Positions 1,005 through 33,428 of a DNA stretch of 34,979 bases are shown piece by piece. This DNA is from an uncultured bacterium. GTDB lineage: Bacteria > Patescibacteriota > Patescibacteriia > Magasanikbacterales > UBA922. The position numbers were made by a program, and so were the translations under genes. The notes below the pieces were generated by a model. The model searched no databases. It was given only the letters and a program-made list of their open reading frames with translations, and was not told the DNA's origin. The DNA lies in contig CALMAY010000038.1 in NCBI GenBank assembly GCA_937861125.1, positions 91,942-126,920 on the forward strand. Direction: 5' to 3'. Each line of letters opens with the position of its first letter. The first letter of the stretch is position 1.

Positions 1005-1169
1005 TGAAACCCCGCTCAAAAAGCGGGGATTATGTTTGGAGGAACGCAGTGGTAGTGTGGGGAGGTGGCCAGCTGAAGATATGGGTGGGAATTCCGGTGG
1101 GATTTTCCGAGCAGATCTGTGGCGGGCTACCACTGCGTTGTTGTGTGATAGGTGTCCTCCTTTACACCT
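1005..1169 (-). ncRNA. Candidate structured small RNA, unknown family (6S-like rod architecture)
   Basis: On the minus strand a promoter (TTTACT, 16 bp, TATACT) is followed by about 165 nt ending in a rho-independent terminator. The ends are joined by a perfect 13-bp stem, AACGCAGTGGTAG (1043-1055) with CTACCACTGCGTT (1127-1139), extended by GGAGG (1038-1042) with CCTCC (1156-1160). A small 5' hairpin (AGGTGT / ACACCT) carries AAAGGAGG in its loop. The roughly 70-nt interior is C-rich with few strong pairs. A long closing stem around a large open interior is the general plan of 6S RNA, but I recognise no conserved 6S, SRP, RNase P or tmRNA core. Alternative: a short ORF of about 39 codons starts at an AUC six bases after AAAGGAGG and stops just before the terminator, but it has no usual start codon. 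Confidence 0.5.
1010..1028 (-). terminator. Rho-independent terminator of the minus-strand RNA (may also stop the upstream plus-strand gene)
   Basis: A 7-bp GC-rich stem (CCCCGCT / AGCGGGG) closes a 5-nt loop. The T-rich tract lies on the minus-strand side (reading TTTCATTTTTG downstream), so it best serves transcription leftward from the candidate RNA at 1005-1169. On the plus strand the stem is followed by ATTATG, a poor U tract. Confidence 0.75.
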
Positions 1170-1175
1170 GTAGGT

Positions 1176-1203
1176 AGTATATGCTTGTTTTGGGAAAAGT
1201 AAA
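1176..1203 (-). promoter_or_regulatory. Promoter of the candidate small RNA
   Basis: Read on the minus strand: TTTACT, 16 bp, TATACT, with predicted start near 1169, just before the AGGTGT hairpin. The -10 matches the consensus at 5 of 6 positions. Confidence 0.5.
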
Positions 1204-1256
1204 GTATATAAAACAAAACGACCAGTCATCTCCTTTCTCACTACCACAGCTGTGAT

Positions 1257-1300
1257 AGAGAAAATTGCGGGACTGGTCGTTTGTACTCTTCCAATCCCGC
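1257..1300 (-). terminator. Terminator after the minus-strand peptide gene
   Basis: On the minus strand GCGGGATTGG pairs with CCAGTCCCGC (one mismatch) around a 14-nt loop, followed by AATTTTCTC. It lies directly downstream of the stop codon at 1307. Part of the loop and 3' arm (GACTGGTCGTTT as plus strand 1271-1282) also has a perfect 12-bp inverted copy at 1216-1227, so a competing fold is possible. Confidence 0.65.
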
Positions 1301-1306
1301 CCTGTC

Positions 1307-1417
1307 TCAGTCTGCATCGGCACTAGCCACCATGGCTCCGCCGATGACGAAGGCGCGTAACAAGGCGCGTCCTACGCAGGTTTGAGACAGGATCCAGAAC
1401 ATGATTATTGTAATCAC
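1307..1417 (-). CDS. Small hydrophobic membrane peptide (36 aa), unknown function
   Basis: This minus-strand ORF starts with GTG at 1417, five bases after a strong Shine-Dalgarno AGGAG, and ends with TGA at 1307. The product begins with a hydrophobic run (ITIIMFWIL), has a central basic/hydrophobic part (GRALLRAF) and a second hydrophobic run (VIGGAMVASA), ending acidic (DAD). This suggests a single membrane-inserted helix. A promoter with a perfect TTGACA lies upstream and a rho-independent terminator immediately downstream, so it forms a complete monocistronic unit. Its codons are GC-rich (CGC, GCC, GGC) compared with neighbouring uvrB. Function unknown; a toxin-like or stress peptide is possible but nothing proves it. 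The plus strand offers a 17-codon reading of the same DNA, but without SD or promoter. Confidence 0.55.
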   Translation of the reverse strand: MITIIMFWILSQTCVGRALLRAFVIGGAMVASADAD

Positions 1418-10383: not shown

Positions 10384-10698
10384 TTATTTTTTTGTTGGTC
10401 GACGCAGGATGGCTGCGTCTGGCGTGTCTGGTCGGTGTCGTGCTCGTTCCTGTGCTGCAATTTCTGCAATGGTTAACGAGGGGATACCACCAGTGGCAGT
10501 TTCTTGTCGTTCTCTTCGTACGGCTTTTATTATTTCTGGTGGAATCTCTGTTCCGTATGGAGGTGTGTCACTGTCTCTTAGTGGGTGTGTTTTTGCATCA
10601 AGTTTGTTCATCTCGGAACCAAGTATCTGCTCTTCCTTTGCTATGACGCTAGGCTGTGTTGTCTCATCTCGGTCCCAAGGAGATTTTGGTTCTGTCAT
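10384..10698 (-). CDS. Small charged orphan protein
   Basis: This 104-residue hydrophilic protein is rich in Pro, Glu, Arg and Thr (PPYGTEIPPEIIKAVRRERQE, then a helical AEIAAQERARHR segment). I recognise no domain. It starts at ATG 10698, preceded on the minus strand by TATACT within an AT-rich region shared with the divergent mraZ promoter. It overlaps nothing and is followed 4 bases later by the acidic orphan gene. Confidence 0.55.
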   Translation of the reverse strand: MTEPKSPWDRDETTQPSVIAKEEQILGSEMNKLDAKTHPLRDSDTPPYGTEIPPEIIKAVRRERQETATGGIPSLTIAEIAAQERARHRPDTPDAAILRRPTKK

Positions 10699-10782
10699 AT
10701 AGTTTTATGCATATGAATATATGTAGTATATCTATTTTTTTTGAAAAAACCAATATCTGTGGATAACTCTAGGTTTATTTCC

Positions 10783-10811
10783 TTGTAAAAACCCATAAAA
10801 GGGTATAAAAT
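10783..10811 (+). promoter_or_regulatory. mraZ promoter
   Basis: TTGTAA, 17 bp, TAAAAT. Predicted start is near 10818, inside the MraZ repeats, giving a leader of about 50 nt. Confidence 0.6.
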
Positions 10812-10840
10812 GGTGTGTAGTGGTATGAAGTGGGATAAAT
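10801..10840 (+). promoter_or_regulatory. MraZ operator: four repeats at 10-bp period
   Basis: Four consecutive 10-bp blocks begin GGGTATAAAA, TGGTGTGTAG, TGGTATGAAG and TGGGATAAAT. Each carries a (T/G)GG(G/T) core at the same position. MraZ is known to bind tandem TGGGN or GTGGG-like repeats spaced by one helical turn upstream of its own gene. Here the array overlaps the -10 and start site, which fits autorepression. Confidence 0.8.
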
Positions 10841-10869
10841 GCTTGTCATTCTACCTCAACCATACATAT

Positions 10870-11301
10870 ATGTTTATCGGCGAATTCTCTCACACACTAG
10901 ACGAAAAGGGCCGTGTATCGGTACCAAAAAAGTTCCGTACCGCCCTTGAAGATGGTGTTGTTTTGACGCGTGGACTCGACAACTGTTTGTTTGTCTACAC
11001 CAAAACAGAGTGGGAGAAACTTGCTGAGAAACTTGCCTCACTGCCATTTGCTCAGGCGAACACACGTGCATTTGCACGTCTGATGCTCGCTGGTGCGATG
11101 GACGCTGAGGTGGACAAACAGGGACGTGTGGTAGTACCAGAGTATCTGCGTACCTTTGCCAAACTCGGCAAAGACGTGGTAATCGCTGGACTCTACAATC
11201 GCCTAGAAATCTGGGATCAAGAAACATGGTCAGCGTACAAAGAAAAAACAGAGGCAGAGAGTGGTGAGATTGCAGAGCGGATGGCAGAACTTGGTGTCTA
11301 A
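10870..11301 (+). CDS. mraZ: Transcriptional regulator MraZ
   Basis: MraZ is a ring-forming, DNA-binding regulator of the division and cell wall cluster. The 143-residue protein starts MFIGEFSHTLDEKGRVSVPKKF and has two SpoVT-AbrB half-domains, the second around DAEVDKQGRVVVPEYLR. This is the usual size and start, which is why I choose ATG 10870 over the upstream GTG at 10810, which lies inside the operator. It heads an operon with rsmH (5-base gap) and the FtsL-like gene. Confidence 0.95.
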   Translation: MFIGEFSHTLDEKGRVSVPKKFRTALEDGVVLTRGLDNCLFVYTKTEWEKLAEKLASLPFAQANTRAFARLMLAGAMDAEVDKQGRVVVPEYLRTFAKLGKDVVIAGLYNRLEIWDQETWSAYKEKTEAESGEIAERMAELGV

Positions 11302-11306
11302 TCTCT

Positions 11307-12212
11307 ATGAGACACGTGCCAGTTCTCCTCCATGAAGTAATTGAGTTGCTTCAGCTCAAATCGGGTGCACATATTATTGATTGTACACTCGGAGACGGTG
11401 GGCATTCAGAAGAGATTCTCAAACACATTGGACCAAACGGGCGACTGTTGGGTATCGATGCAGATGATGAGTCTCTCGCTCGTGCTCAGTCGTATCTCTC
11501 CGCGTTTACAGGTCAGACCATGTTTGTCAGAGACAACTTTGTTCATCTGAGATCAATTATTGAGCAGACGAGATTTACTCCAGTCAACGGAATTCTCATG
11601 GATTTCGGATGGAGTTCACCACAGTTTGCTGATCGAGGAAGAGGATTTAGTTTTCAAAACCCAGATGAGTCGCTCGATATGCGGTATCAAACGACAGAAG
11701 GGCAAACAGCCGCAGACATAGTCAATACATATACTGAAAAAGAAATAGAAATAATACTCAGAGAATACGGTGAAGAAAAATTAAGTAAAGAAATAGCAAA
11801 TAACATTATTGAATCTAGAAAAATAAAACAAATACATACAGTCGGAGATTTGGTAGAAATTATCCTGCAGACATATAGAAAAAAATTAAAAACAGAAAAA
11901 GAAATACCATGGATTGGTGGGCTCCATCCCGCCACAAAAAGTTTTCAAGCAATTCGTATAGAAGTCAATCAAGAATTGCGAGTGATCAAAGAAGTACTGC
12001 CACAGGCAGTTGATGCACTTGCTTTAGGTGGACGGTTGGCAGTGATTACCTTCCATTCACTCGAAGATAGAATCGTCAAACATTATTTCAAATCAGTCTC
12101 TACGAATACTATTCGTATCATTACTAAAAAACCTATCGAAGCGAGTGATGCTGAGTATGAGAATAACCCTCCCTCACGCAGTGCCAAACTTCGAGTGATT
12201 GAAAAAATATGA
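11307..12212 (+). CDS. rsmH: 16S rRNA (cytosine(1402)-N4)-methyltransferase RsmH
   Basis: RsmH methylates N4 of C1402 of 16S rRNA using SAM. The 301-residue protein starts MRHVPVLLHEVIELL and shows the SAM-binding strand IDCTLGDGGHSEEIL, GIDADDESL, then GILMDFGWSSPQFADRGRGFSF, and the C-terminal HPATKSFQAIRIEVNQEL and ITFHSLEDRIVKHYF motifs. Family length is about 310. The helical insert (about nt 11720-11920) is markedly A-rich and uses AGA/ATA codons, unlike the CGT-rich flanks. The gene overlaps the next by ATGA. Confidence 0.96.
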   Translation: MRHVPVLLHEVIELLQLKSGAHIIDCTLGDGGHSEEILKHIGPNGRLLGIDADDESLARAQSYLSAFTGQTMFVRDNFVHLRSIIEQTRFTPVNGILMDFGWSSPQFADRGRGFSFQNPDESLDMRYQTTEGQTAADIVNTYTEKEIEIILREYGEEKLSKEIANNIIESRKIKQIHTVGDLVEIILQTYRKKLKTEKEIPWIGGLHPATKSFQAIRIEVNQELRVIKEVLPQAVDALALGGRLAVITFHSLEDRIVKHYFKSVSTNTIRIITKKPIEASDAEYENNPPSRSAKLRVIEKI

Positions 12213-17318: not shown

Positions 17319-17347
17319 TTGACATAATTTTTGGGACAGTATATTCT
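17319..17347 (+). promoter_or_regulatory. Promoter of the 69-residue GC-rich gene
   Basis: TTGACA (perfect), 17 bp, TATTCT; predicted start near 17354. Confidence 0.8.
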
Positions 17348-17385
17348 TAAACATAAGAAATGTCCTTTGGTAAGGAAGGTGCGTT

Positions 17386-17595
17386 ATGGATGAAGAACTT
17401 AAGGCAAAGATCCTGAAGTCGCGTCGCTTCGCACGAGAAAACGGTCCGCAGATCATGCAAAAGGTTCTTTGCGATCTCGATGAGAGTAATCGCAAAGATC
17501 GTTTTAGGGGGGCAGGCTTGACCCCCGAGCAAGATCGGGATGACCGGCTCCGGCAGCCGCTTCCGCCACCTTCGCCCTCTCGCAAACCGCAGTAG
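17386..17595 (+). CDS. Small charged protein (69 aa) in a GC-rich cassette, unknown function
   Basis: A strong Shine-Dalgarno (AAGGAAGG, 17372-17379) sits 6 bases before ATG 17386. The product has a basic/acidic helical N-terminus (MDEELKAKILKSRRFARENG, then IMQKVLCDLDESNRKDRF) and a proline-rich, basic tail (PLPPPSPSRKPQ). No known domain. A perfect consensus -35 promoter lies upstream and a GACGGC/GCCGTC terminator downstream, making a self-contained unit. Codon choice (CGC, CTC, CCG) is richer in GC than rplU. A 9-bp inverted repeat (CTTTGCGAT / ATCGCAAAG) lies within the coding region. A nucleic-acid-binding or regulatory role is possible from charge alone. Confidence 0.65.
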   Translation: MDEELKAKILKSRRFARENGPQIMQKVLCDLDESNRKDRFRGAGLTPEQDRDDRLRQPLPPPSPSRKPQ

Positions 17596-17613
17596 GACAT
17601 TCGGAGGGGTTTT

Positions 17614-17652
17614 GACGGCAGGTACTTTTGTATCGCGCCGTCTTGCTTTTTG
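17614..17652 (+). terminator. Terminator of the 69-residue gene
   Basis: GACGGC (17614-17619) pairs with GCCGTC (17637-17642), followed by TTGCTTTTTGTG. Confidence 0.65.
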
Positions 17653-17801
17653 TGTATCTCACTATAATAAAATTTCCGTATCACTGTATGGGAGTTTTTT
17701 GTTGACCTATTTTTGTGTTTGTGTGTATGTTATATAGTATAACGTCTATAAACATGTGCAATGTCCAAAATAGGAGGGGGAATATAGTATATTTGTCCAA
17801 G

Positions 17802-20461: not shown

Positions 20462-20475
20462 AAGTTTTCGAAGTT
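20462..20475 (+). repeat. Left 14-bp inverted repeat flanking the four-helix-bundle gene
   Basis: AAGTTTTCGAAGTT, exact inverse of AACTTCGAAAACTT at 20870-20883. A degenerate second unit (GGAGTTTTAGAAGTT) lies just to its left, 18 bp apart. Confidence 0.75.
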
Positions 20476-20827
20476 ACCTAAGTGTTTTGATGAGGCTGTT
20501 TAATCCTGCGCCGATAATCATGTATTCTGATCTAGCTTTTTCGTATCGTTCTTTTTCTATCAACCCGAGATTGTAGAGAAATTCAAGATTGAACAATACT
20601 TCGTCGCATGAACCGTGTGATGTTCTGAGGAAATTTATAATGTCTTTGTTTGATTTTCCTCGAGCATACCCTTCTGCAATATTTGAAGGAACTGACCGCG
20701 CTGCTCGACGAATGTCGTCTGCTATATCGTACTGGAGATACTGAGGAAGTGATGAGGTCAGTTTGTATACCGCAATTGCCGCTTTGAACGATCTGTTGTA
20801 TACATCTAAATCTTTATATGTCCCCAT
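20474..20827 (-). CDS. Four-helix-bundle protein (S23 / 23S rRNA intervening-sequence protein family)
   Basis: From ATG 20827 the 117-residue protein matches the S23/avd-like four-helix-bundle family: YKDLDVYNRSFKAAIAVYKL, YDIADDIRRAARSVPSNIAEGYAR, FLRTSHGSCDEVLFNLEFLYNLGLI. The family is best known as ORFs in intervening sequences of 23S rRNA and as free-standing genes, with a proposed nucleic-acid-binding role. Here it sits between ybaB and recR, genes normally adjacent, and is bounded by perfect 14-bp inverted repeats; its stop codon overlaps the left repeat. No SD. Confidence 0.88.
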   Translation of the reverse strand: MGTYKDLDVYNRSFKAAIAVYKLTSSLPQYLQYDIADDIRRAARSVPSNIAEGYARGKSNKDIINFLRTSHGSCDEVLFNLEFLYNLGLIEKERYEKARSEYMIIGAGLNSLIKTLR

Positions 20828-20869
20828 ACATACAAAAAACAAAACTTCTCAAACCTCCTTAACTCCTCC

Positions 20870-22956: not shown

Positions 22957-22985
22957 CTGACAAGTAAAAAGAGAAAGAGTTTAAT
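22957..22985 (+). promoter_or_regulatory. Promoter of the 37-residue basic peptide gene
   Basis: CTGACA, 17 bp, TTTAAT; predicted leader of about 50 nt with a GCCAGA/TCTGGC hairpin. Confidence 0.55.
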
Positions 22986-23040
22986 ATTATCTGTCATTCG
23001 CCGCCAGAGCGTTTTCTGGCACTTCTGTGAGAGGCTCACC

Positions 23041-23154
23041 ATGTGCGATCCACGTTCGCGTCCGAAGCCGCCTGGCTTCGGAAAGGGTAAGACCAGTAAC
23101 CAGATCAAGGCTAAGGAGGAGAAGGCGGGTAAAGCGTCCATCAAGAAGAAGTGA
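23041..23154 (+). CDS. Small, very basic protein (37 aa) in a GC-rich cassette
   Basis: SD GAGAGG lies 6 bases before ATG 23041. The product starts MCDPRSRPKPPGFGKGK and ends KAGKASIKKK, with many Lys/Arg and almost no hydrophobic residues, so it is likely nucleic-acid-binding or disordered. It is preceded by a promoter and a leader hairpin, and followed by a GC-rich stem-loop and a terminator. I recognise no family. Codon use and GC content differ from flanking dnaB and the glycosyltransferase gene. A longer reading frame upstream lacks support. Confidence 0.5.
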   Translation: MCDPRSRPKPPGFGKGKTSNQIKAKEEKAGKASIKKK

Positions 23155-23164
23155 CGGCGAGCGG

Positions 23165-23203
23165 GGCCGACCAACGTGACGCGTTCGCGCGTTCGGGTCG
23201 GCC
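23165..23203 (+). other. Strong GC-rich stem-loop with TTCG tetraloop
   Basis: GGCCGACC (23165-23172) pairs with GGTCGGCC (23196-23203), and inside ACGCG-TTCG-CGCGT (23079+100 offset: 23179-23192) forms a second stem capped by a TTCG tetraloop. It has no U tract and precedes the true terminator. Confidence 0.65.
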
Positions 23204-23226
23204 TCGCGTTCGACTCGTTTGATAGG

Positions 23227-23246
23227 GACCAACATGGTCTTTTTTT
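23227..23246 (+). terminator. Terminator of the 37-residue peptide cassette
   Basis: GACCA-ACA-TGGTC followed by seven or more T residues. Confidence 0.75.
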
Positions 23247-23259
23247 GTTTGTACAAAAC

Positions 23260-32257: not shown

Positions 32258-32287
32258 TTGACAGGAGAGGTGTATGTATGGTACATT
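32258..32287 (+). promoter_or_regulatory. Promoter of the GC-rich NUDIX gene
   Basis: TTGACA (perfect), 18 bp, TACATT; predicted start near 32294, giving a leader of about 110 nt. Confidence 0.65.
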
Positions 32288-32293
32288 CCGCTG

Positions 32294-32402
32294 TCTTTCG
32301 AATTGTTCGAGAGCAACGGGTATCTACGTAAAAGTGATGCGCCCAGGATAGTCCAAAAAGCATCACTCCACAGATGGCTGTCTGTGGAATAGGAGGAAGA
32401 CC
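32294..32402 (+). promoter_or_regulatory. Structured leader of the GC-rich NUDIX gene
   Basis: Three stems are visible: TCGAA-TTG-TTCGA (about 32299-32310), GTGATGC (32334-32340) with GCATCAC (32360-32366), and CCACAGA (32368-32374) with TCTGTGG (32381-32387) just before the SD AGGAGG (32391-32396). This could be a riboswitch-like or attenuator leader, but I recognise no known class. Confidence 0.4.
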
Positions 32403-33065
32403 ATGCAGACGGTCATCCACCTCTCGGAAGCGCTGGCGCAGGGGCTCGTCCCCGGCTGGAACTCCGGAGAGGGGGACTACCTGCTCGTCAACCCGCGCAT
32501 GGGAGTGGAGCTCCGACGCGTCGCGATCACTCGCGATGGTCGGCCGCTCTACGACCAGTGGCTTGCGGTCGAGCCGGTCGGGGCGGCAACGCTTCCGATC
32601 GGTGATGACGGAAAGATCGGTCTCGTTCAGCCTTGGCGGCCCGTGTCCCCTGTGGACCAGCCGCTGCGCTCGGGTGAGGTTGATCTTTCGACCCTCGGAC
32701 AGGCGTGCTGGGAGATCCCTCGTGGATTTCCACAGCTCAACCAGTCTAGGGTCGAGTCATCGAATTTGACCGCTACACGGGAGACTGAGGAGGAGCTCGG
32801 ACTGCGCGTTTCCGTCGCCGAGGTGCTTGGGCACTACCGGATGAACTCGACGTTCTTCGTGAACGCGATTCCGATCTGGTACGCTCGAGTGACTGGCGAG
32901 GGAAGTGCGCGAGCGGGTGATCCGAACGAGAAGATCCTCAAGGCTCAAATGTTTGACCGTTCTGCGGTCGAACAGATGATCCTTGCAGGAGAGATCTCGG
33001 ACGGATTTACCCTTGCGGCGCTGACGTTGTATGACGTCCGGCGCCGCGTCGACGGGCTCCTCTAA
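32403..33065 (+). CDS. NUDIX hydrolase in a GC-rich cassette
   Basis: The 220-residue protein contains a Nudix box with intact RETEEELG (126-133) and the preceding Glu118 at the right spacing, but the expected glycine six residues earlier is not there (Leu); a GFP lies a few residues upstream instead. ENIPRGFP-like WEIPRGFP and the NSTFFVNAIPIWYAR region fit the hydrolase fold. It would hydrolyse a nucleoside diphosphate linked to another group; substrate unknown. SD AGGAGG sits 6 bases before ATG. Codon use is strongly GC-rich (CTC, GTC, GCG, CGC), far from flanking genes, suggesting transfer from a high-GC donor. Confidence 0.85.
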   Translation: MQTVIHLSEALAQGLVPGWNSGEGDYLLVNPRMGVELRRVAITRDGRPLYDQWLAVEPVGAATLPIGDDGKIGLVQPWRPVSPVDQPLRSGEVDLSTLGQACWEIPRGFPQLNQSRVESSNLTATRETEEELGLRVSVAEVLGHYRMNSTFFVNAIPIWYARVTGEGSARAGDPNEKILKAQMFDRSAVEQMILAGEISDGFTLAALTLYDVRRRVDGLL

Positions 33066-33403
33066 GGTCTAGGCAGGTGCGGGCGCGCACCCCATGGATA
33101 AGCGCGCCAAAAATTCCGCTAGTCGGAACGTAGTGGGTCGGCGGTTTCTCAAAACCGGCCCTTATACTCGCTTCGGCGAGGGAACCAGATGAGAGTCTGG
33201 GTATGCTACGAAATCAAGTGGGCGGCCCGTAGTACTGAAGAAAACATATGACCAGCCAGTCATGTGTGAGTATATAGTATCTGCCGGTCGATAGTTCGAT
33301 TGCGGTCTGAGATGGTTCAAACTATCTTTGTCCGCTGCTACCCATCTACGTCCCCGCACCACCGAGGCGCATCATGCGTTCGCGGTCGGGGAAGTCTCAA
33401 AGT
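33066..33403 (+). other. GC-rich, stem-rich region after the NUDIX gene; possible RNA or tiny ORFs
   Basis: No long ORF. Local stems: TTCCG-CTAGT-CGGAA (about 33113-33127), CGGTTT with AAAACCG (about 33142-33158), CTCGC-TTCG-GCGAG (33167-33180), ACCAGA with TCTGGGT (33183-33201), and CCCCG...CGGGG (33352-33391). Two tiny ORFs overlap by ATGA: 33094-33192 (32 codons, basic) and 33189-33251 (20 codons); neither has a good SD. The region ends at the terminator at 33404. I see no tRNA, tmRNA or RNase P core. Confidence 0.4.
33094..33192 (+). CDS. Possible 32-aa basic peptide
   Basis: ATG 33094 to TGA 33190-33192, GC-rich codons like the upstream NUDIX gene, product rich in Arg/Lys (MDKRAKNSASRNVVGRR...). 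Its stop overlaps the start of a second tiny ORF (33189-33251). No well-placed SD, so low confidence; it may only be part of a structured RNA. Confidence 0.2.
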   Translation: MDKRAKNSASRNVVGRRFLKTGPYTRFGEGTR

Positions 33404-33428
33404 ATCCCACGTATCAGTGGGATTTTTT
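33404..33428 (+). terminator. Terminator of the GC-rich NUDIX cassette
   Basis: ATCCCAC-GTATCA-GTGGGAT followed by a T run. Confidence 0.85.

Follow-up and report, generated by a model that had tools for sequence, protein, structure and literature searches.

The stretch of DNA analysed here, called the window, comprises 34,979 nucleotides (bases 91942-126920) of contig C38 from an uncultured bacterium of the order Magasanikbacterales, the genome of which amounts to 1,000,003 bases in 56 contigs. Contig C38 (324,887 bases) has a mean GC content of 0.42, and the window contains several short GC-rich units, whose features are collected in Table 1. The 120-nt GC maxima of four of them reach 0.71, 0.65, 0.62 and 0.61, which places them first, third, sixth and eighth among the intergenic regions of the contig. 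The eight GC-richest intergenic islands of C38 consist of these four units, three similar units outside the window and one island that, by eye, lies in a GIY-YIG-like reading frame.

Table 1. Features of the GC-rich units; positions refer to the window unless contig C38 is named.
Feature	Position	Strand	Evidence and remarks
Candidate structured noncoding RNA	1005..1203	-	Promoter 1203-1176, terminator 1028-1010, internal 13-bp perfect inverted repeat
12-bp perfect inverted repeat before T-rich stretch, terminator-like	1216..1282	-	Transcript fold z -5.1
36-aa hydrophobic ORF, GTG start at 1417	1307..1417	-	AGGAG 5 nt upstream, GC3 0.64
Promoter TTGACA-17-TATTCT	17319..17347	+	Promoter scan
69-aa orphan ORF	17386..17595	+	AAGGAAGGTG upstream, GC3 0.57
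Terminator-like hairpin with T-rich tail	17614..17655	+	Fold z -3.3 for 17600-17660
37-aa orphan ORF	23041..23154	+	Weak SD (GAGG only), GC3 0.70
GC-rich stem, then terminator 23224-23242	23158..23242	+	Fold z -4.0 for 23150-23250
Sigma-70-like promoter TTGACA-18-TACATT, TG before -10	32258..32287	+	Promoter scan
Structured 5' leader, hairpin just upstream of AGGAGG (SD 32391-32396)	32293..32402	+	Fold z -4.9
Nudix-domain gene, 220 aa, GC3 0.74, hyper-structured coding RNA	32403..33065	+	Pfam NUDIX
Long structured 3' untranslated region, intrinsic terminator at end (stem 33404-33423)	33066..33425	+	Fold z -3.7, -4.6
Similar unit outside the window	C38 135949-136122		57-codon ORF, weak GAGGAG
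Similar unit outside the window	C38 ~194.3-194.6 kb	-	TTGACA-17-TATATT by eye, 47-codon frame
Similar unit outside the window	C38 304140		12-codon ORF with AGGAGG

The initial annotation described these units as a group of GC-rich cassettes, each led by a Shine-Dalgarno (SD) sequence and equipped with its own signals, an observation that is partly confirmed. The units exist and are GC-rich, but their quality is uneven: the unit at 32258-33428 alone has every part claimed for it, and that at 17319-17652 is good. At the level of the scan, near-consensus promoters were recovered for 17319 and 32258 on the plus strand and for 1005-1203 on the minus strand; there was none for 22957-23246 or for 1257-1478, which reads on the minus strand and contains TTGACA, yet yields no scan-level promoter. 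Because the scan totals hardly exceed those of shuffled sequence (47 vs 36.7 and 45 vs 38.1), a promoter match alone is weak proof. As for the strong SD expected six bases from the start, AGGAGG lies 6 nt before the ATG in the unit at 32258, whereas the 22957 unit offers only GAGG. The region 1005-1203, taken as a probable further member, has a promoter, a terminator and the SD-like motif AAAGGAGG, but by eye no ATG, GTG or TTG stands at SD distance, and it is better read as a structured noncoding RNA. The pattern seen in the initial annotation is thus real, although the units placed together in it are of unequal quality.

The most complete unit encodes a Nudix-domain protein. The Nudix box has the consensus GX5EX7REUXEEXGU; its catalytic RExxEExG is present here, and by alignment the spacing is canonical in the homologous protein of a relative, G023, with 4 extra residues in the window protein. 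The Pfam NUDIX score (22.1 bits) lies just over the cut-off of 21.1, and residues 97-207 weakly match PDB 1mk1, of the ADP-ribose pyrophosphatase kind (E 0.0024). The N-terminal ~100 aa are without a match, and the predicted structure of the protein alone has a mean pLDDT of 32, too low to be of use.

The Nudix unit occupies a recurrent position. In this genome and in G023 it is flanked by the same two genes, one RmlD-like and the other for a glycosyltransferase; in a further relative, G010, it comes after the RmlD-like gene. Since the flanking genes are roughly as far from one relative as from the other, the simplest interpretation is descent from a common ancestor followed by losses; having kept a single syntenic position in three genera, the unit is not a recent arrival. 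Its GC3 is 0.74 in this genome, 0.59 in G023 and 0.54 in G010, against genome means of 0.36, 0.37 and 0.33. As these values are high in all three at protein identities of 52% (G023) and 37% (G010) to the window protein, the composition has not ameliorated. The corresponding SDs are AGGAGG in this genome, AAGGAGG before GTG in G023 and a weak AAAAGGGGA in G010. These results bear on a tentative alternative, according to which the units are only xenologs that have retained the composition and the SDs of high-GC, SD-using donor bacteria, with no special mode of expression. Such transfer would account for the finding of the Nudix protein in only 3 of 86 genomes of the order (alignment search, E <= 1e-12), and for the lineage-specific character of the units at the 22957 and 194k junctions, which are absent from the same junctions of G010 and G023. 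In addition, several SD-led GC-rich genes of relatives resemble, by eye and without donor comparison, Gram-negative lipoproteins or an OmpA-like domain. The syntenic Nudix slot of three genera, with GC3 still high at such divergence, argues against transfer as the whole explanation.

The proposal that the units derive from a common source was not borne out: the Nudix unit is single-copy, a search of 58 other genomes gave no relative of the 69-aa protein, and no component of a mobile element was detected. A mobile gene cassette was likewise rejected, since a DNA search of the genome returned one copy of the Nudix unit and the inverted repeats differ between units. Phages and plasmids gave only weak Nudix matches at 26-31% identity, and viral contigs contained no relative of the Nudix alignment or of the 69-aa protein. 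Ordinary genes sharing the SD use and GC3 of the units were not found, and stable vertical inheritance with ordinary composition holds by half, as the Nudix unit is vertical and its composition non-ordinary; overall, the earlier interpretation is partly supported. The slot after the RmlD-like gene (window 32203) itself varies among genera: the shared glycosyltransferase may be preceded by the Nudix gene, a lipoprotein-like gene, a small protein or no gene at all. Among the loci of relatives, 9 of 16 could be read (6 gave no downstream reading, and L240 was of insufficient length): the glycosyltransferase follows the RmlD-like gene directly in L233 and L239, a small protein lies between them in L229 and L230, and a lipoprotein-like gene comes next in L228.

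The coding RNA of the Nudix gene folds to an unusual degree. Its minimum free energy is -363.6 kcal/mol over 660 nt (-366 for the gene at 32403..33065), corresponding to z = -10.2 relative to dinucleotide shuffling and z = -9.1 when synonymous codons are shuffled. The G023 ortholog reaches -14.0 and -16.3 by the same two measures, and that of G010 folds modestly (-2.1 and -2.5). Ten ordinary genes used as controls gave z between -3.3 and +1.5, and 15 other SD-led GC-rich genes of relatives ranged from +0.6 to -4.0, most of them mild. When contig C38 was scanned in 650 windows of 200 nt, the Nudix coding window ranked second, behind a tRNA with its terminator, the positive control of the scan. 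A specific conserved fold was considered and rejected: pairs of the window fold are kept in G023 only slightly above expectation (148/238 vs 132.8 +- 4.5 with shuffled synonymous codons; in the reverse direction 132/240 vs 126.8 +- 4.2), there is no covariation, and two-sided pair changes between the two coding RNAs are not above the null. It is folding strength, not a particular fold, that the two RNAs have in common. The 3' untranslated region measures ~360 nt in both genomes (z -3.7 here and -4.5 in G023). The regions following the Nudix gene at window 33066-33425 and at L003 2143-2506 combine near-equal length and strong folds with little identity and no Rfam match; a group intron or other known RNA was rejected for the Nudix 3' untranslated region, the only match being a sub-threshold one attributable to chance.

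The folding of the smaller units is located elsewhere, outside the ORFs. Whole-transcript z values are -6.7 for 1005-1203 (-5.4 in a second computation), -5.1 for 1257-1478, -3.5 for the 22957 unit, -6.5 for the 304k unit and -3.1 for the 194k unit, compared with -0.1 +- 0.9 for sliced ordinary genes. Such values would be expected if the GC-rich islands marked structured noncoding RNA genes in which the small ORFs are incidental, and the two short orphan ORFs tested against Pfam, NCBIfam and PHROG gave no matches. As an account of the whole set this is nevertheless doubtful. The 17319 transcript reaches only -0.95, the Nudix gene is clearly protein-coding, and the window holds no Rfam match at gathering score. 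Moreover, the ORF bodies fold no better than shuffles (z 0.0 for the 69-aa, 0.0 for the 37-aa, +0.8 for the 47-aa, +0.3 for the 57-aa and -1.2 for the 36-aa ORF).

The genomic background against which these units stand was characterized with a simple home-made gene finder, which supplied gene calls, starts and GC3 in place of an annotation. The 288 genes called on C38 have a GC3 of 0.36 +- 0.07, and the longest SD match upstream of them is the same as in shuffled upstream sequences; 356 genes in 420 kb of the genome likewise carry SDs at the shuffled rate. A different feature marks the ordinary starts: T occupies position -1 in 86% of them, and at about 80% of start codons across all sampled genomes, forming a strong start-context signal. 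Furthermore, of 163 operon-first genes, 20 have a -10-like box 8-9 nt 5' of the start, compared with ~2 per other position. Pooling 14 genomes, such boxes occur at gaps 8 and 9 in 37 and 36 of 841 genes, and in ~16 at other gaps. Some ordinary genes thus look leaderless from their sequence. In view of the shuffled SD rate, the T at -1 and the -10-like boxes, the initial annotation was right in stating that resident genes are mostly SD-poor and that some appear leaderless. Two further regions of the window are of interest in their own right. The segment 18500-19800, which contains a DUF1643 gene and an ORF of lipoprotein-like character, is AT-rich (GC 0.28), an atypical composition of the opposite kind, and at 20474-20842, on the minus strand, a gene for a 23S rRNA intervening-sequence protein has AAGGAGGT 11 nt before its TTG start.

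Whether SD-led genes form a distinct expression class, as had been suggested, depends on the scale of comparison: the class is apparent across the family, but within this genome alone its SD part is weak. On C38, strong SDs precede 94 of 2401 intergenic starts and 1026 of 25734 starts inside genes, so that there is no enrichment. In the sampled part of the genome, SD-led ORFs occur in 4 of 13 GC-rich islands vs 2.05 in shuffles (max 5), a count that misses the Nudix gene, the ORF of which extended beyond the sequence tested. Significance was obtained only across the family, for which 14 genomes were sampled at 40-420 kb each rather than as whole genomes. Among uncalled ORFs with GC3 more than 3 sd above their genome, an SD match of at least 6 was found in frame in 12 of 67, as against 2/67 and 1/67 in the other two frames. 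T at -1 was present in 12 of 44 genes with such an SD (called genes together with uncalled ORFs at GC3 z >3 and z 1-3) vs 1210 of 1508 others (p = 1.5e-13), which indicates that the two start signals tend to exclude each other; for gene-model calls alone, the proportion is 8 of 26. Strong SDs stand before 26 of 1530 called genes vs 13 at a mock position. Half of the 26, namely 13, come from the single genome G027, where many SD-led genes have an ordinary low GC3, contrary to what donor-derived composition would predict. Compositional chance, by which G-rich stretches yield SD-like motifs and hairpins and unrelated intergenic sequences are grouped, agrees with the nil or weak SD enrichment of the genome taken alone but is improbable in general, being largely refuted for the class across genomes by the frame-shifted controls (3/134 vs 12/67) and by a Nudix fold that is extreme against dinucleotide and synonymous-codon controls; taken individually, the 22957 and 1257 units may still be products of chance.

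The home-made gene model missed the Nudix gene, a warning that GC-rich SD-led genes escape gene finders whose training comes from genomes of this type. Further genes of note were seen in relatives. One is an AGGAGG-led lipoprotein-like ORF with collagen-like GPQGP repeats on a GC-rich contig end (L019 10393-12801). Another is a prepilin-like gene (MNKKGFTLIELLVV) with GGAGGTGA on contig C4 of G002, near 306769 (126769 of the joined sample), in a mostly SD-less genome. On contig C3 of G029 (10662-12064), two adjoining high-GC SD-led genes, by eye lipoprotein-like and OmpA-like, have GC3 10-12 sd above the genome.

The ribosomal protein bS21 and its gene rpsU provide a link between SD use and the ribosome. 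A search prompted by the Bacteroidota precedent identified a divergent bS21 gene in this genome, with a total of 55 among 59 genomes having one; of its 56 matches, 26 without a locus were not read, except that of this genome and those already read. The named relatives of this bS21 belong mostly to Candidatus Magasanikbacteria; more distant ones come from Uhrbacteria, Falkowbacteria and other Patescibacteria. The rpsU leader of this genome carries AGGAGGTG and reads tcacctgAGGAGGTGtacaaacacATG. An SD match of at least 6 precedes rpsU in 33 of 37 named loci and in 60 of 64 distinct leaders of the order and its neighbours, and the pairing energy, computed without a shuffled control, is -12.5 or lower in 37/37 named loci. 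The set comprises 74 leaders; excluded were loci re-entered via the same genome, L045, L057 (a second G040 match with a 404-codon frame) and L085 (a clipped locus with its start away from the expected place). In 31 of the 64 leaders the SD is covered by a perfectly paired hairpin of 5 bp or more, vs 0.7 (max 3) in controls with shuffled upstream sequence. In an example, TCACCT-gagg-AGGTGA, the 5' arm resembles the anti-SD, and in the L160 leader arm and SD have changed together (TCACCC/GGGTGA). The evidence for the hairpin is comparative, as the leader of this genome alone has no significant fold (z -0.7). In the rpsU leader at L021 3739-3770 (G000, contig C10), AGGAGGTG lies inside TCACCTGAGGAGGTG.

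The anti-SD GATCACCTCCTTT is intact in 26 of 27 16S stretches of relatives, a count that excludes three 5' fragments (L218-L220); the 16S gene of this genome is absent from the assembly. The rpsR gene was considered as a second SD client and rejected, since the test applied to rpsU found an SD in 0 of 26 rpsR loci (one of them, L188, with a wrong start; L194 excluded). That rpsU, a core gene, carries the strongest SD also counts against horizontal transfer as the sole origin of SD-led genes.

Taken together, the data can be accommodated by two classes of translation start, with SD-less genes marked by T at -1 on the one hand and a leadered, structured, SD-led minority on the other, the latter probably translated best when bS21 is scarce; the chance that this composite reading is correct is about even. 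In this model, most genes would be initiated without an SD, from a T(-1) context and in some cases from leaderless-looking transcripts. A minority of accessory transcripts, the window units included, would have their own promoters and leaders and would be GC-rich and often strongly folded. On a structured leader, SD-anti-SD pairing could find the start where the SD-less route would fail, and the existence of two classes suggests that structured GC-rich transcripts keep their SDs as poor clients of that route. rpsU is among the SD users, with an exceptionally strong SD as in Bacteroidota; by this analogy, translation of SD-led units would probably be most efficient at low bS21.

The elements of the two-class model differ in standing. 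The two start classes, the rpsU SD with its hairpin, the anti-SD of the relatives and the extreme Nudix folding are results of computation, while bS21 may, by analogy, hide the anti-SD in this lineage and window units may respond to it. Several findings count against the model: the SD signal of the genome alone is nil to weak, strong SDs before called genes are only twice as frequent as at the mock position and half of them come from G027, the 37-aa ORF has a weak SD, the Nudix gene of G010 combines a weak SD with a modest fold, and most other SD-led GC-rich genes fold mildly. Plain SD use would also account for a strong SD before rpsU. Horizontal acquisition of some members would conflict with neither part of the mechanism, and for the lineage-specific units such an origin is likely.

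A stronger version, and an unlikely one, would have bS21-controlled access to the anti-SD evolve independently in Magasanikbacteria. The rpsU hairpin would mimic the anti-SD, and control would have spread from one gene to a regulon of leadered, hyper-structured accessory mRNAs, exemplified by Nudix, with coding folds under selection; ordinary ribosomes would hardly translate these mRNAs, which only ribosomes free of bS21 would open. If bS21 does act as in the two-class model, SD control linked to it would operate in a second, distant phylum of uncultured bacteria and with more than one client gene. The analysis also exposes a bacterial mRNA whose coding region folds nearly as strongly as a tRNA together with its terminator. 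What stands out at the locus is not a set of cassettes from a common source but the division of starts into two classes, the SD signal of rpsU and the hyper-structured mRNA of the Nudix gene. In the literature covered, which leaves out most subscription papers and preprints, no publication joined rpsU, Shine-Dalgarno and Patescibacteria, or Magasanikbacteria and Shine-Dalgarno, and none dealt with the rpsU SD in this group.

The closest known system is that of Bacteroidota. In Flavobacterium johnsoniae, bS21 is reported to hide the anti-SD and rpsU, which has an exceptionally strong SD, to be autoregulated, and Flavobacterium ribosomes lacking bS21 favour strong-SD mRNA (McNutt et al. 2023, PMC9976891). 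The same paper states that SD-less initiation in Bacteroidia relies, among others, on reduced secondary structure, and that rpsU is typically the sole SD-led gene of Flavobacteriales (PMC9976891). The present lineage resembles the system so described in its mostly SD-less genes, the intact anti-SD of its relatives and a very strong rpsU SD. The likeness is known here from sequence alone and concerns a distant phylum with a divergent bS21. The two also differ in detail: the accessible text of PMC9976891 contains no mention of a hairpin covering the rpsU SD, such as is found here; further accessory genes are SD-led here, whereas in Flavobacteriales, as portrayed there, the SD is confined to rpsU; and rpsR lacks an SD here, whereas some other Bacteroidia orders have one before it. 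A second parallel is offered by an intracellular pathogen in which a bS21 homolog is reported to govern gene expression (PMC9578407). The proposal that the protein composition of the ribosome governs expression is shared with that system, from which the present genome differs in that one divergent bS21 gene was found in it.

At the level of the protein, the Nudix gene product is akin to ADP-ribose pyrophosphatase Nudix hydrolases such as PDB 1mk1, through its weak match, its Pfam score just over the cut-off and an intact RETEEELG. It departs from enzymes of that kind in the ~100-aa N-terminal extra, the 4-residue insertion in the Nudix box and the hyper-structured mRNA. RNA viruses possess genome-scale ordered RNA structure, in which folding strength extends over the whole coding region. 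Unlike these, the Nudix gene, for which no close virus relative was found, is a chromosomal bacterial gene with a promoter and a terminator; its transcript resembles them in that folding strength, rather than any single conserved fold, spans the coding region.
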